From IMG/VR virus record IMGVR_UViG_3300049912_000012, positions 1-64,000 of that record: a stretch of DNA of 64,000 bases. The stretch is one strand, 5' to 3'. The DNA is from a virus. A program made the translations under genes and the position numbers. The notes beneath the pieces were generated by a model. The model worked only from the letters and a program-made list of their open reading frames with translations. It was not told the origin of the DNA and ran no database searches. Below, piece by piece: positions 1-58,390 of this stretch (positions are counted from its first letter, which is position 1; every line of letters starts with the position of its first letter).

Positions 1-1080
1 TTCTGCTGTGTTAAGAGTCTCATCTAACTTTCCTACCCTATCAAAGACACTTCTCCTATACATTAAAGTTGCACTATGAATAGGATTTGTCTTCAATAAC
101 CTATCTAATGTCACATATTTGTCAGGAGATTTCCATGACTTCAATTGACCATTACTTTGCCTTAACTCAGTAGCATTGCCATGAATAAAATCTACATCTT
201 GTTCTTCTATTGCTTTTACCGAATCTTCTATACAATTAGGAGTAAGCATATCATCTTCATGTAACCACCTTATATAATCACCTGTGGCTTGATTTAAGAC
301 CTTGTTGAAATTCTCCGGCCAATTCCCTTCTTCCTGGCTTACGATGCATTGTACCCACACAGGGATACTTGCTATGGCATCTTTTAGCCATCCTCTATCA
401 ACCTTATACGGAACGATAACAGTAACACGAAGTTTAGGGCTAAAATTGACATATTCTTTGACCCAAGGAACATCTGCATCATGTATTCTTGGTTTCCCAT
501 GAAAACATACAATATCACAATTTTTAGGTAACGCCTGTAATAACTGGTTTCTTTTAGGTTTAAAGTCAACTATCATATTAGTTAATGATTGCCAATAAAC
601 AGGTGTACTTATTATATTCCTTAGATAGTTATCCATCCTATTGCCTGTCCTTCCTTTGAATGAATCCCATACTCTCTTTATAACTTCTGAATTTGCAGGA
701 AACCATGCAAGTCCTGTTGCCAACCTTCCTTTCTGCCAGAAATCTTCAAGTGCAATGAATTTAGACTGATCTATTATTATGTCAAATAGATTTTCAAGAG
801 AATTAATAATTGCAGTATCAAGGTCTACATAAAGAAATGGTCTGTATTGTTCCATCTCAGGAGAATAGAGTTGCATCCTTGCCCATGTACCAGGTAAATC
901 ATTATTAAGAGGGATAAGTTCAAAATTGCCTAAATCGTAATGTTCAGTAGCCTTGTCAAATAAACAAATAATCCTTGGCCTGCCATTTCTCCATTTAGCA
1001 TTTATATGACGTGAAATAAGTTCCACATCTCTTAACTCAAAATCCTTACCACTCCTAAGTACCAATACTATATTAACCAT
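1..1080 (-). CDS. Two-domain glycosyltransferase, partial (C-terminus off the left edge)
   Basis: The frame is open from the ATG at 1080 to the window edge, 360 codons without a stop, so the C-terminus is missing. Residues 1-200 resemble a nucleotide-sugar glycosyltransferase in which FLYVDLDT carries a metal-binding DxD at 86-88. From about residue 219 a second domain begins like a GT2 enzyme (VTVIVPYK), with HEDDML at 274-279 as its probable DxD. The fused protein could therefore add two sugars in sequence; acceptor and sugars cannot be read from the sequence. Its start overlaps the stop of the upstream FkbM gene by 8 bases, so it is the last visible gene of the glycan operon. Confidence 0.85.
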   Translation of the reverse strand, partial: MVNIVLVLRSGKDFELRDVELISRHINAKWRNGRPRIICLFDKATEHYDLGNFELIPLNNDLPGTWARMQLYSPEMEQYRPFLYVDLDTAIINSLENLFDIIIDQSKFIALEDFWQKGRLATGLAWFPANSEVIKRVWDSFKGRTGNRMDNYLRNIISTPVYWQSLTNMIVDFKPKRNQLLQALPKNCDIVCFHGKPRIHDADVPWVKEYVNFSPKLRVTVIVPYKVDRGWLKDAIASIPVWVQCIVSQEEGNWPENFNKVLNQATGDYIRWLHEDDMLTPNCIEDSVKAIEEQDVDFIHGNATELRQSNGQLKSWKSPDKYVTLDRLLKTNPIHSATLMYRRSVFDRVGKLDETLNTAE

Positions 1081-33357: not shown

Positions 33358-33438
33358 TTATTTATCTTCTTTAGTAAATATCAAGATTATAACTAATAAA
33401 ATAATTATCCCACCTATAGCCAGGTAAATTACATTCAT
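33358..33438 (-). CDS. 26-aa membrane peptide
   Basis: Starts MNVIYLAIGGIIILLVIILI and ends FTKEDK, a single transmembrane helix with a charged tail. Its ATG shares four bases with the stop of the sigma gene (ATGA) and its TAA abuts the ATG of the next gene. This perfect tiling argues for a real coupled gene despite its size. Function unknown. Confidence 0.45.
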   Translation of the reverse strand: MNVIYLAIGGIIILLVIILIFTKEDK

Positions 33439-33896
33439 CGAAATAGTATTTTAAATTCATCCTTATTCCTGCAAAAAATAGATTTGAGAGTGCCGTCACT
33501 TACATTCATTTCCTCACCCAGTTGTTTATATGTTAAATCTCTCCAAAAATGTCCAAGGATTATCTTCTTCTTAATATCTGAAAGATGACTCCCATTAACA
33601 GCATTTAACATATCAGGATAATTCACTTCTTCGTCACTTATATCTAAACCATTTAAATCTGTATATCGTTGCTCTCTCTTTAACTGTGTTATACAACAAT
33701 TTTTTACAAGTCTCCGAAGATAATTAATCCTTTGCCCATTGTAAAGTTCATATACATCAGTTCTTGACTCAAGAATCCTTAAAACACAATCATGAATAAT
33801 ATCACCTGGGTCTAATCCATAACGAGCAATAGACCTTGTAAATAGTTTACGATTCTCATAAAAATATTCTACTAATTCATTTTTATCTAGTTTCAT
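33435..33896 (-). CDS. ECF-like RNA polymerase sigma factor
   Basis: 153 aa. GLDPGDIIHDCVLRILESRT with the following helices matches sigma region 2 (core binding and -10 recognition). DLTYKQLGEEMNVSDGTLKS is a helix-turn-helix in the place of region 4. It lies directly after the terminase genes in the late transcript, so it could redirect host polymerase to phage promoters late in infection or tune virion gene expression. Anti-sigma or adaptor roles cannot be excluded. A second sigma-like gene occurs at 48.9 kb. Confidence 0.72.
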   Translation of the reverse strand: MKLDKNELVEYFYENRKLFTRSIARYGLDPGDIIHDCVLRILESRTDVYELYNGQRINYLRRLVKNCCITQLKREQRYTDLNGLDISDEEVNYPDMLNAVNGSHLSDIKKKIILGHFWRDLTYKQLGEEMNVSDGTLKSIFCRNKDEFKILFR

Positions 33897-33906
33897 GACA
33901 TTTATA

Positions 33907-35421
33907 TTAAGTTACCCTACGAGCTATCTTCTTATTAGCTAACTTAGTTACAGCAAGAGATGACGCATCAACCTGGTCCTTATATGTGGAAAACGGAAAA
34001 TAACGTAATTCATTTATATAATTCAGATTCCAACTTCCCTGTAAAAGTATTACATTACCATTATTAACCTGTACTGAATAAGGATCAGCACGATACGTTT
34101 TATCTCCCGATGCATGTTCTGAATCTGCTTTAAACCCTAAAAGATTCCTTATTGTACCTTCTGCCGATTCCTTCCCTGAACTACCAGGTTCTTGTTCTAT
34201 CCATATTTCCACACCTGTACCATCTGTGTCTGCAACCGACCTGATAATCCTTTCTCTCTCTTGACTTTCCCATTGACCCCGCACAACATCTTCAACCAAT
34301 AACCTGTTATTAATCAATTTACTTATCTTAACCCCTGCTGTATATGCACCACCTCCCTGTGTTCCTGCCTTATCCCATGCACGCACAGTATGTAATATCT
34401 CATGTTTTTGTGGAAGTGACGTGGTAATAGTAAATTTATCAACCTTGAACATACCTCCACCTGGGGGTGTAGGATTTTGCCCTATCTGCCCTGCATATCC
34501 ATACTGTCCTAACTTGGATTCAAGGTCTTTAAGAGTCTTCCATGAAATACGCTTGGTATCCAAGAGATCATCAGTATAAAAATCAACCATCTCTTTAGGA
34601 GTAACAAATTCCCTAAAGTTGCGTATCTCACCTGGGAGACAGATATGCCTGACATTTTCTTCTTTCTTATCAAGCCAATGACCTGATGGATCATTCATAT
34701 GAAGCCTTTGCATTATTAAAATAACAGGGGTAATATCTTTATCCCTCTTACGAAGTGGAAGTGTTTGTTCCATGAAATGATTAGCATTCGCCAATTCTAT
34801 ATCTGATGCAGCCTGTGTAGGATTTAACGGGTCATCAACAATAAGTATATCTGCATGAAATCCTGTAACAGTACCGGTAAGAGATGTACTGATCCTGCCT
34901 CCACCCGTTAAAAGACTCCCCCTCCTATGAGTACCACCTGCACCTGTAACCTTCTTAGCAATCTTAAAATTAGACTTGACGTTCTTATCTTCCTTTATAA
35001 TAATGTCAGGGTACATCTCTTGGAATAACTGGCTCTGCAATATATCACGACAATATTCTGCACTTTCCAAGGAAAGTTTATCCGAATAGGACATTGTTAT
35101 GATAAGCATCCAATGCCATCGAGTCCAACACCAGATAGGAAACATGATACTAACAAGGGCCGTTTTTGTGCTTCCTGGTGGTACGTTCAGGATTAAATCA
35201 TAATCCCTGGGTTCCCTACGTGAAACTTTCTCGGCAACTTTTTCAAGTTCTTTACAGAGATATTCTATATGCCAGTTTGGGGAAAACGGTTGTGACGAAT
35301 ATACAGGCCAAAAATATTTAAGGAAGTGGTAGAGGGAGCGGTTGTTTAGTTCCCTCGTAATGAGTAGGGGGTTCTTCAAGAGTTCCTTGACAATTTCAGG
35401 GCTAATTGTCGTCCCCGGCAT
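33907..35421 (-). CDS. Terminase large subunit
   Basis: 504 aa. LILNVPPGSTKTALVSIMFP carries the Walker A motif and ADILIVDDPL Walker B; ILIMQRLHMNDPSGH fits the coupling motif. The C-terminal RNase H-like nuclease starts AWDKAGTQGGGAYTAGVKI and includes IWIEQEPGSSG and DQVDASS, with plausible metal-binding acids. It cuts concatemers and pumps DNA into the prohead. It overlaps the small subunit gene by 20 bases. The length is typical. Confidence 0.95.
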   Translation of the reverse strand: MPGTTISPEIVKELLKNPLLITRELNNRSLYHFLKYFWPVYSSQPFSPNWHIEYLCKELEKVAEKVSRREPRDYDLILNVPPGSTKTALVSIMFPIWCWTRWHWMLIITMSYSDKLSLESAEYCRDILQSQLFQEMYPDIIIKEDKNVKSNFKIAKKVTGAGGTHRRGSLLTGGGRISTSLTGTVTGFHADILIVDDPLNPTQAASDIELANANHFMEQTLPLRKRDKDITPVILIMQRLHMNDPSGHWLDKKEENVRHICLPGEIRNFREFVTPKEMVDFYTDDLLDTKRISWKTLKDLESKLGQYGYAGQIGQNPTPPGGGMFKVDKFTITTSLPQKHEILHTVRAWDKAGTQGGGAYTAGVKISKLINNRLLVEDVVRGQWESQERERIIRSVADTDGTGVEIWIEQEPGSSGKESAEGTIRNLLGFKADSEHASGDKTYRADPYSVQVNNGNVILLQGSWNLNYINELRYFPFSTYKDQVDASSLAVTKLANKKIARRVT

Positions 35422-35944
35422 CTCCAGGTAGTGATATTAATGGTTCAGGTTCTATATCCGTGACATTCCTTAACTTCTTAGCTTCTTTCTCTAATAATGC
35501 CAAGATGTCAGTAGAGATAGTATCTATGTTGATGTTGATGTTTGCCGTGCTTTCTATACTTATCCTCTGTGTCTCTGACCATCCCTGGTCCCTCGCTTTA
35601 AGTGACATCAACCGCATTGCCGTCCAAGGATCAGGAAGTCTTTGCTTCTTGATAGTAGTTTTCTCCCACTTATGAACAGACCTGTCATAAGTTGCTACCT
35701 CTTCTTCATATGGAAAACCTAATGCAAGTTTAAGAATAGACTGTGTAACACCTGTTAAAATTCCCAAGTTACCATCGTCTATTGCCTTCTTAAATTCTTT
35801 ATGAGTCTTTTTCCATTGACAGTAGGTAGAATAATGAACATCCATTATCTCAGCCTGTTTTTGCTCTGAAAATCCTGCAGACGTAAGCAAATAGGCCATT
35901 TCAATGTATCTATCTGTCCACTTTACTAACCTTGAAGGTAACAT
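35402..35944 (-). CDS. Terminase small subunit
   Basis: 180 aa. FSEQKQAEIMDVHYSTYCQW is the DNA-binding helix-turn-helix, followed by a central helical part (KAIDDGNLGILTGVTQSILK) and a C-terminal tail that would contact the large subunit. It recognises the packaging site, perhaps in the DNA just upstream. It is the first gene of the minus-strand late unit, and a TATATTGCAAC box lies 14 bases upstream of its start. Confidence 0.85.
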   Translation of the reverse strand: MLPSRLVKWTDRYIEMAYLLTSAGFSEQKQAEIMDVHYSTYCQWKKTHKEFKKAIDDGNLGILTGVTQSILKLALGFPYEEEVATYDRSVHKWEKTTIKKQRLPDPWTAMRLMSLKARDQGWSETQRISIESTANININIDTISTDILALLEKEAKKLRNVTDIEPEPLISLPGDAGDDN

Positions 35945-35990: not shown

Positions 35991-36096
35991 GTAGTTTTTA
36001 GTTAAAAAGTTTCAACTAACATATAAAATTACCAACATAGGTACATAAATAAATATGAAAATAAATTGAAATTTAAAGTCAGAATATCAAAAAATA

Positions 36097-36115
36097 TTTT
36101 ATAATAGTGAAAAAT
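36097..36115 (+). promoter_or_regulatory. TTTTATAATAG promoter-like element 1
   Basis: Nineteen bases matching 58372-58390 at 18 positions. Shorter versions lie before the genes at 49410 and 50253. Here it precedes the structured RNA region and the first early genes. Confidence 0.45.
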
Positions 36116-36500
36116 AATCGTTCTTTTCCATTGTGGATTCAAAAATAAGTTCTACATTTGCTCTTGATTATTGTAGTGGATTACAGATGTATCAAGAAAA
36201 AACTTACAGAATTGCCCTATGTGCTGATGAAAAATCGTCAGTCGAAAGGCTATCGTTTGTATCCACTACAACGTCAGCCATAGGGTTTCTTCATAGCTTT
36301 TCCCATTGCTTGATTGTATTGAAGCAGAATCCAAAGCGGAGCAGGATATAGAAGTCTGAGAAAGATAAACAAATCCATGCTCCTTCTGTTAATTGAAGAC
36401 ATGGTCGGACAAAAGAAAGATTTAAAACTCAGCCTTTAACGATGAGGACACTTCTTGACCTGAGTGCAGATGCAACACGGAAGAAGAATTGTCCGAATAA
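36112..36500 (+). ncRNA. Structured non-coding RNA candidate with pseudoknot
   Basis: About 390 bases without a convincing gene. Perfect stems: CTTGAT 36163-36168 with 36191-36196; an 11-bp helix 36171-36181 with 36261-36271; CCCTATG(T)GCTGA 36215-36227 with 36274-36285 (12 bp, one bulge); a GAAA-capped hairpin 36240-36251; nested hairpins 36296-36337; CCATG/CATGG 36375-36404; TCGGACAA 36405-36412 with 36489-36496; ACTCAG 36427-36432 with 36460-36465. The 11- and 12-bp helices interleave as an H-type pseudoknot. No features of tmRNA, RNase P or group I introns were recognised. The strand is inferred from the neighbouring plus genes and the promoter-like box. Confidence 0.6.
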
Positions 36501-36512
36501 AAGAAATATAAT

Positions 36513-36668
36513 ATGGAAATAATACTTTCACTCATAGCTTTATTTATTTCGGTACTTTTCTACCTCAGTGTTACCCAAACTCTAAAAGATAAAAAGAAAG
36601 AGTTTAAGAGGATAAGTGGTATGGATTATGATGAATACATAAAAAAAGAGAGACTAAATAAAAAATGA
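36513..36668 (+). CDS. 51-aa membrane protein
   Basis: Starts MEIILSLIALFISVLFYLSV, an N-terminal transmembrane helix, then a basic/acidic tail (KDKKKEFKRISGMDYDEYIK). Its stop overlaps the next ATG by four bases (ATGA). First gene of the early plus-strand unit. No known family recognised. Confidence 0.6.
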   Translation: MEIILSLIALFISVLFYLSVTQTLKDKKKEFKRISGMDYDEYIKKERLNKK

Positions 36669-36889
36669 GAAGGATAGCAAAAGTTATAAAAGGCAAGAAA
36701 GGTTATTTTATCCAAAGAGATGATGCAAAGATCAACTATGACTACAAGACTAAACAATTCTTATACGAATCAGAATTTATAACTACCGGTAAATTAATAA
36801 AAGAATTAAAGGAACAATTTGATGAAGGTTATCCTATCTCTGCAGACCCTAAAGTACTAAAGTCACTTGAAAAACTATTAGACAAATGA
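36665..36889 (+). CDS. Small early protein, unknown
   Basis: 74 aa. Starts MRRIAKVIKGKKGYFIQRDD, basic at first, then acidic. It begins in the previous stop and ends in the next start (ATGA on both sides), so it is part of a tightly coupled trio. No motif recognised. Confidence 0.6.
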   Translation: MRRIAKVIKGKKGYFIQRDDAKINYDYKTKQFLYESEFITTGKLIKELKEQFDEGYPISADPKVLKSLEKLLDK

Positions 36890-37086
36890 AACATAAAGAT
36901 ACTTTTCTAACTAAAAAACAACTTCTTCACAGATTAGATGATGCTGATTATAGACTTGAATATTTTAAAGAATATTATTCTAAGTTAGAAAGTGATAATA
37001 AAGCATTGCAAAAACAACTATTTAATATGGATAGGAAGTACTATGAATTATTAAATAAAAAAAAGTGGTATCAGTTTTGGATATAA
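36886..37086 (+). CDS. 66-aa coiled-coil protein, paralogue of 62199-62399
   Basis: MKHKDTFLTKKQLLHRLDDA and the C-terminus LLNKKKWYQFW are almost the same as in the gene at 62.2 kb; the middle is a charged helix. The two copies lie 25 kb apart in the early region and share the same length and ends. They could form a homo- or hetero-coiled coil. Function unknown. Confidence 0.7.
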   Translation: MKHKDTFLTKKQLLHRLDDADYRLEYFKEYYSKLESDNKALQKQLFNMDRKYYELLNKKKWYQFWI

Positions 37087-39974: not shown

Positions 39975-39975
39975 A

Positions 39976-40067
39976 TGTCAAGTAATTTGTCACGAAGATA
40001 CACCTTATTTCTTACATTATCAAGTTTCTTGTCATATACTTATTAACACTTGTCAAAAAACTTGTCA
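39976..40067 (-). promoter_or_regulatory. Operator-like array of TGACAAG half-sites
   Basis: Read on the plus strand: TGTCAAG 39976-39982, TTGTCA 39987-39992, CAAGTTTCTTG within 40021-40031, CTTGTCA at 40028-40034, 40049-40055 and 40061-40067. The sites are mostly in one orientation, some paired as palindromes, and begin two bases upstream of the regulator start. Confidence 0.6.
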
Positions 40068-40140
40068 GAGTGTTTTCCGTTGGAATTGTTTTTCCGAAAT
40101 TTTTCCCAAGGTGTTTTCTTCTTGAATTCTTTCTGCAAAT

Positions 40141-40360
40141 TATCAGAGAGCGTGTCCACCCAGGCTTCCCTCCCCTACCGGTCAAGCCTGCCAGCCGGTC
40201 CCCTGGCAAAGGTCCTGCCAAAGGTATGTATATATGACTAGCTAGCTGATCATGTCTTAAATAGCCTGCAAATAGGTCCCCTTTGAATGTATGTATAAAG
40301 GATTAAGGCCAGGGACAGGTCAGTGATGTGACCTTTCCCGGATATTTGCCAAAGGTTTAT
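40141..40360. other. GC-rich repeat island, candidate origin or control region
   Basis: A gene-free stretch much richer in G+C than the window. It holds inverted repeats CAGGCTT 40161-40167 / AAGCCTG 40184-40190, ACCGG 40177-40181 / CCGGT 40195-40199, and AGGTCA 40317-40322 / TGACCT 40329-40334. GGCAAAGGT (40205-40213) and GCCAAAGGT (40217-40225, 40348-40356) recur directly. It is followed by very AT-rich DNA. Confidence 0.45.
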
Positions 40361-40675
40361 TTAATACAAGTTAGTTAGTTGTGATCTATGATATATATTT
40401 ATTTAGTTTATTAAGTGTATTTCTTACACTTAAATAAGTTATTGAATTTGCTGTTAATAAGTGTTAATTATACACTTATTAGTTATTTATTAACTAATTA
40501 TTAAGTTATATAACTATGTTATAATTAGTTGTGCATGGTTATTGTATATTTGCAAATGTTAGTTATTTTAAGGTTTATTTAAAATAGTTAATATTCTATT
40601 AATACCGGTTATTATTCTATGTATATTATATGTTATTGTTTCATACCTTTATATAGTTAATTAATACATAAAGCT
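40361..40675. other. Very AT-rich gene-free stretch
   Basis: No gene seen. Built from short TTAGTTA, TTATTAA and TAAGTT-type words. TATATTTGCAAA (40545-40556) matches a Bacteroidota -7 box but lacks a clear -33 partner. Could be the easily melted part of an origin next to the GC-rich island, or the leader of the ORFan block. Confidence 0.4.
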
Positions 40676-51771: not shown

Positions 51772-51791
51772 AATCGCATACTAATTACATC

Positions 51792-52004
51792 ATGAATCTA
51801 AAAGAATTTATAAATGCCCCAAAGGTAGATGCAATGAATCCGCAAGGTGTAATTGGTATGCCATCTACCGGAGGGGTTTTATATATTACCAATGAAGAAT
51901 TATTCATCAGGAATCTATATGATTCAATCTTTTTCAAAACCAGAAAGAACTTATATTGGAAGTGCGGTAAATATTCAACAAAGATGGTGGGTACATTTAT
52001 GTAA
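51792..52004 (+). pseudogene. Probable N-terminal fragment of an interrupted gene
   Basis: The ATG at 51792 follows the promoter. The frame reads MNLKEFINAPKVDAMNPQGV and then GMPSTGGVLYITNEELF before running into the GIY-YIG gene in another frame and stopping at 52004. The first 28 residues look like a real gene start; the remainder is out-of-frame endonuclease sequence. It may be the original start of the downstream gene, cut off by the endonuclease insertion. Confidence 0.4.
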
Positions 52005-58332: not shown

Positions 58333-58371
58333 AAAATAATTGCAAAGAATTTCTATTTATTCAAAAAATTC

Positions 58372-58390
58372 TTTTATAATAGTAAAAAAT
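58372..58390 (+). promoter_or_regulatory. TTTTATAATAG promoter-like element 4
   Basis: TTTTATAATAGTAAAAAAT, one mismatch to 36097-36115. It lies seven bases before the ATG at 58398. Confidence 0.5.

Follow-up and report, generated by a model that had tools for sequence, protein, structure and literature searches.

The lysine riboswitch combines a closing helix, a five-way junction and a loop–loop contact between P2 and P3 with a conserved junction sequence. Elaborate RNAs are also encoded by phages. GOLLD and ROOL are ornate phage-encoded RNAs of about 650 to more than 800 nt that lie near tRNA islands and are supported by covariation (PMC12286853). The put RNA of phage HK022 demonstrates that a leader RNA can govern the early programme of a phage, antitermination having been shown for it (PMC9378689).

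Here we describe a viral locus in which a stretch of about 300 bases is, judging from its modelled fold, very probably an elaborate knotted RNA. The initial annotation had called it an unknown structured RNA with an interleaved pseudoknot, a description that agrees with the folding statistics, the wobble pairs of the + strand, the position of the promoter and the absence of an Rfam match reported below. If real, this unclassified, elaborately folded RNA would join the very few known from phages, and it would be placed where the whole early programme could be controlled.

Layout of the locus

The window, by which we mean the whole 64-kb stretch of DNA analysed, comes from a virus record of 78,889 bases. 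A 181-base direct repeat is found at both ends of the record (window 1–181 and record 78709–78889, 99% identity), and the record may be a complete, circularly assembled genome, with which the terminal repeat is consistent. The terminase large subunit (TerL) is similar to that of IMG/VR contigs, and its best match among cultured phages is to Cellulophaga phages, at 37%. Judging from the TerL similarity, this uncultured phage probably has a Bacteroidetes host.

The divergent arrangement originally proposed for the locus is indeed present. TerS, TerL, a sigma-like protein and the virion genes form a leftward unit from 35944, while small early ORFs followed by helicases and other replication genes form a rightward unit from 36513, and the gene-free structured stretch lies in the gap between the two (Table 1). 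The sigma-like gene, at 33435–33896 directly behind TerL, encodes a small sigma-70 region 4 protein and is a possible late sigma factor. A second gene-free divergent stretch lies inside the early unit at 39975–40675. It contains TTGTCA repeats (about 39979–40080) and AT-rich inverted repeats, its segment 40312–40611 folds far below shuffles (z of −7.4 on the + and −5.1 on the − strand), and it is possibly a replication origin.

Table 1. Features of the locus in window coordinates, and slot stretches of four relatives in the coordinates of their own contigs
Feature	Position	Strand	Remarks
Terminase small subunit, first gene of leftward unit	35402..35944	-	phrog_309, E 1.9e-16
Promoter-like box TCAAAAAATATTTTATAATAGT	36087..36108	+	one near-copy in genome; predicted start ~36112
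Structured RNA domain, closing P1 and hairpins P2-P5	36112..36425	+	z -4.49; constrained fold
P1, 5' strand	36116..36142	+	24 pairs with 36393-36422, bulges
Hairpin P2	36148..36213	+	22-nt loop 36169-36190 carries strand A; constrained fold
Helix A (kissing/pseudoknot), 5' strand	36171..36181	+	11/11 Watson-Crick pairs with 36261-36271
Hairpin P3, built on helix B	36214..36286	+	constrained fold
Helix B (P3), 5' strand	36214..36229	+	T36222 bulged; 15 pairs with 36272-36286
Small hairpin inside P3, GAAA tetraloop	36240..36251	+	AGUC-GAAA-GGCU, 4 pairs including one U-G
Helix A, 3' strand (A'), abuts B'	36261..36271	+	pairs with 36171-36181
Helix B (P3), 3' strand (B')	36272..36286	+	pairs with 36214-36229
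Hairpin P4	36296..36337	+	constrained fold
Hairpin P5, directly after P4	36338..36383	+	constrained fold
P1, 3' strand	36393..36422	+	pairs with 36116-36142
Possible competing helix, would open P1 base	36405..36412/36489..36496	+	8 pairs; 2.9 kcal/mol above P1 form, nested model
3' hairpin P6, between domain and first early start codon	36446..36494	+	folding
First early cistrons, 51/74/66 aa, overlapping ATGA, putative cis target	36513..37086	+	no terminator ahead
Slot stretch in L142	943..1310	+	
Slot stretch in L208 and L211	1749..2007	-	
Slot stretch in L213	1..232	-	

That the stretch is gene-free, as had been claimed, is confirmed by a search for protein coding. The sole ORF within it, a GTG-started frame of 72 codons without a coding signal, has a codon score of −0.045, which is about the off-frame mean (−0.041) and below the scores of all annotated early genes (minimum −0.005), and the frame gave no matches in Pfam, PHROGs or phage tblastn searches. 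A 72-aa gene was therefore rejected on the basis of its off-frame-like codon score and lack of relatives.

Known RNA classes were sought with the Rfam 15 covariance models (4227 families), which at the gathering threshold gave no match over the window, and a local E-value scan against Rfam yielded only chance-level matches. In line with the initial annotation, the stretch thus corresponds to no known class in Rfam, including GOLLD, ROOL, riboswitches, tmRNA and introns; ARAGORN likewise called no tRNA or tmRNA in the window. The hammerhead core elements CUGAUGA and GAAA both occur in the stretch. A hammerhead ribozyme, in which stem II would stand between the two, was nevertheless rejected, because CUGAUG lies within the 5′ strand of helix B, GAAA is the tetraloop, and Rfam gave no match.

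The promoter-like box ends four bases before 36112, and from the predicted start site it is 4 nt to the beginning of the modelled fold. The only other near-copy of the box in the genome is found at 58361–58383, ahead of an ORF at about 58399. The proposal that a box is shared with position 58372 holds for this pair as a 30-nt match with 90% identity (E of 1e-4 within this genome), but not for the 12-mer core taken alone, which shows no enrichment when two mismatches are allowed. The box contains no clear −35 hexamer. The GC content, about 18% in this AT-rich stretch, climbs to about 40% in the domain. An intrinsic terminator directly after the domain was considered and rejected, as none was found between the folded domain and the first early ORF.

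Interleaved helices and the whole fold

Two long interleaved helices are present where they had first been drawn. Helix A has the 11 bp claimed for it, whereas helix B is longer than the claimed 12 bp and consists, with one bulge, of 15 pairs, 8 of them in 36214–36221/36279–36286 and 7 in 36223–36229/36272–36278. A′ ends at 36271 and B′ starts at 36272, leaving zero spare bases, so that the two helices can form a quasi-continuous helix of 26 pairs. The hairpin with the GAAA tetraloop was also recovered.

Every abutting pseudoknot on both strands of the 64-kb window was scored by stacking energy. The A/B pair ranks first with −45.8, a score valid only against sequence of like composition because GC-rich related contigs attain such scores, and is followed by runners-up with −39.3 and −37.7. 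In 1500 dinucleotide shuffles of the region its energy was never reached (best shuffle −41.7), and 12 shuffled windows, scored on one strand each, gave −40.7 at best. Among 500 dinucleotide shuffles made from the 389 nt, 4 contained two interleaved helices with 11 or more pairs. The second-best abutting pseudoknot of the window (51776–51869, −39.3) is mostly a 16-bp hairpin and immediately precedes an ORF whose beginning resembles that of a GIY-YIG homing endonuclease.

Thermodynamic folding, which had been suggested as a check, places the + strand well below its shuffles. The nested fold of 36112–36425 has a z of −4.49 (200 shuffles) compared with −2.96 for the − strand, and the + strand is the better folder because of G–U wobble pairs, which are found in each of P1, P2, P3, P4 and P5. 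For the longer segment 36112–36500 the value is −3.36; z below −3.3 occurs in about 3% of sampled 300-nt windows. When both strands of helix A were kept free and helix B was formed, the rest of the minimum free energy fold was barely altered, at a cost of 5.7 kcal/mol in the nested model, compared with about −19.8 that helix A is worth before the pseudoknot penalty.

In the constrained fold there is no gap between P2 and P3, nor between P4 and P5, and helix A links the P2 loop with the foot of the P3 interior. P2 itself is made of the pairs 36148–36153/36208–36213, 36157–36159/36200–36202 and 36162–36168/36191–36197. On the 3′ side of P6, AT-rich sequence is followed by the ATG at 36513. A switch between P1 and the competing helix is a lead from near-equal nested energies, and we did not adopt it as a mechanism.

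Related phages and the gap upstream of TerS

Searches for homologues started from DNA, protein and structure. No similar DNA was found by blastn in phage and plasmid records. Protein-based scans of viral contigs with terminase and capsid yielded about 190 IMG/VR loci of relatives, whereas scans with the TerS, ORF89 and ORF74 proteins gave zero relatives and a helicase scan gave one distant match. A search of genome contigs returned only a distant Halomonas locus, and the exact helix A pattern returned nothing. No homologue of the RNA was detected by blastn and nhmmer in the loci of the approximately 190 terminase and capsid relatives, 50 whole related records searched as DNA gave only short chance-level pieces, and the single-sequence covariance model R1 had no match in 45 whole related records and about 100 loci.

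The nearest relative, L003, has a TerL identity of 81%, and the next identity among the relatives is 65%. The L003 contig stops about 230 nt above TerS, before the position of the RNA, and a weak alignment of its end covers the AT-rich part but does not include the RNA. This gap in identity and the early end of the L003 contig explain part of the absence of homologues, which means "not found at 65% or below" and not "not conserved". We regard the RNA as a candidate for an orphan RNA family, not a proven one.

Many related phages carry a promoter-like stretch of the same orientation, about 80–190 bases away from where TerS starts, and a minority have other gene-free, structured stretches in the gap between TerS and the early genes. 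Among 53 relatives, six have a z of −3.9 or lower in this slot, a pair of these six being duplicates of a single sequence; the count is suggestive and was made without a proper control. Four relatives, L142, L208, L211 and L213, have a common gene-free slot stretch with 80% identity. Their consensus fold has 52 unchanged, 12 one-sided, 9 two-sided and no broken pairs, although it comprises only two distinct sequences and was fitted to those same sequences. The L142 stretch has no match in Rfam and, with its relatives, is a candidate for an RNA family of its own. A covariance model of this group had no match in the window, and homology between its RNA and that of the window was rejected for want of sequence or model similarity.

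Two further relatives, L165 and L166, share 97 nt at 78% identity in a structured gene-free slot stretch upstream of TerS. In L137, positions 981–1058 are tRNA-like, with a perfect T arm and an odd D arm, and score 16.7 bits in Rfam against a cut-off of 29 bits; ARAGORN made no call there. Taken together, there are hints that the gap between TerS and the early genes serves as a slot in which structured RNAs turn over fast. If real, structured leaders that turn over faster than the surrounding genes would be missed by comparative RNA searches.

Possible roles and comparison with known systems

We suggest, with a confidence just short of even, that the stretch is a structured 5′ leader acting in cis on the early (rightward) mRNA. 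Its strand, its place at the 5′ end of the early mRNA and the lack of a terminator before the first early gene argue for such a leader, and favour it over the early–late switch, packaging RNA or defence RNA proposed initially, for which we found no specific support. The helices, their excess over chance, the strand preference, the position and the lack of a coding signal are direct observations. Of these, the top-ranking pseudoknot, unmatched in 1500 shuffles, and the z of −4.5 speak for the leader, as do the low cost of helix A, a fold beginning just past the start site, the rise in GC content and the G–U pairs. The promoter-like stretches at a similar distance from TerS in relatives, and their other structured gene-free stretches, are also consistent with it. 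Against the leader stand the lack of a detected homologue, a box without a clear −35 or an enriched core, and the size of the domain, 307 nt being large for a mere 5′ shield.

In such a leader, RNA polymerase would start at about 36112 from the box, and the first 310 nt would fold co-transcriptionally, with P1 joining the ends and P2–P5 standing on P1. The loop of P2 would kiss the foot of P3 through 11 pairs stacked on the 15 pairs of P3; the P6 hairpin would come next, followed by the first small early gene with its start codon. The compact 5′ domain could then act in cis on what becomes of the early mRNA, protecting the 5′ end of this mRNA against decay and/or setting translation of the first cistrons, the choice between which is a guess.

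A fold this ornate, with P1 closed and a kissing helix of such length, could also belong to a separate trans-acting ncRNA in the manner of GOLLD and ROOL, transcribed from the same promoter, released by processing and serving as a particle or a binder of a host factor. Ornate phage RNAs with kissing loops do exist (PMC12286853). We consider this unlikely here, as no terminator follows the domain, and GOLLD and ROOL have about twice its length and are found near tRNA islands, whereas the window has no tRNA and matches neither family. By analogy with put, the nascent leader might instead bind the polymerase and confer resistance to pausing or termination across the early unit. The HK022 put RNAs occupy the same position behind early promoters and need no phage protein (PMC9378689), and the early unit here is longer than 27 kb. 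This function appears improbable, given that put has about 70 nt and two stem-loops as against 310 nt here, and that terminator-like sites across the early unit are not above chance.

The inverted repeats might also work as DNA, as a packaging site for terminase, an operator or an origin. The stretch adjoins the terminase genes where divergent promoters would lie, and if the genome is complete, as the terminal repeat suggests, a packaging site must exist somewhere. The better folding of the + strand (−4.5 vs −3.0) nevertheless comes from G–U pairs, which are meaningless in duplex DNA, the interleaving of A and B suits RNA, and no iteron or palindrome array was found, leaving little probability for a DNA site. 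We give as little to an accidental structure, a leader or degenerate stretch whose complementarity arose by luck. It would accord with the missing homologues and with the share of sampled 300-nt windows that have a z below −3.3, but the A/B pseudoknot is the best of 128 kb of strand and was unequalled by the shuffles, and the helices join into one closed fold that begins at the predicted start site.

The cis-acting leader may belong to a new RNA class, defined as a five-way-junction leader of about 310 nt with a 26-pair kissing stack, in a fast-turnover slot at the early promoter that holds other, unrelated structured RNAs in related phages; this wider claim we put forward as doubtful. The stretch shared by L142, L208, L211 and L213 resembles the window RNA in place, strand and approximate size. 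GOLLD and ROOL resemble it in being phage-encoded, elaborate and gene-free with kissing helices, but length, proximity to tRNAs and the lack of an Rfam match all place the window RNA (about 310 nt) outside these families. HK022 put, too, is structured and opens a phage early transcript, and the position here would fit a put RNA; size and fold do not, put having no kissing helix. The lysine riboswitch differs in its shorter contact and conserved junction sequence, and its Rfam model has no match in the window, but it shares with the window RNA the closing helix, the five-way junction and the loop–loop contact between P2 and P3.
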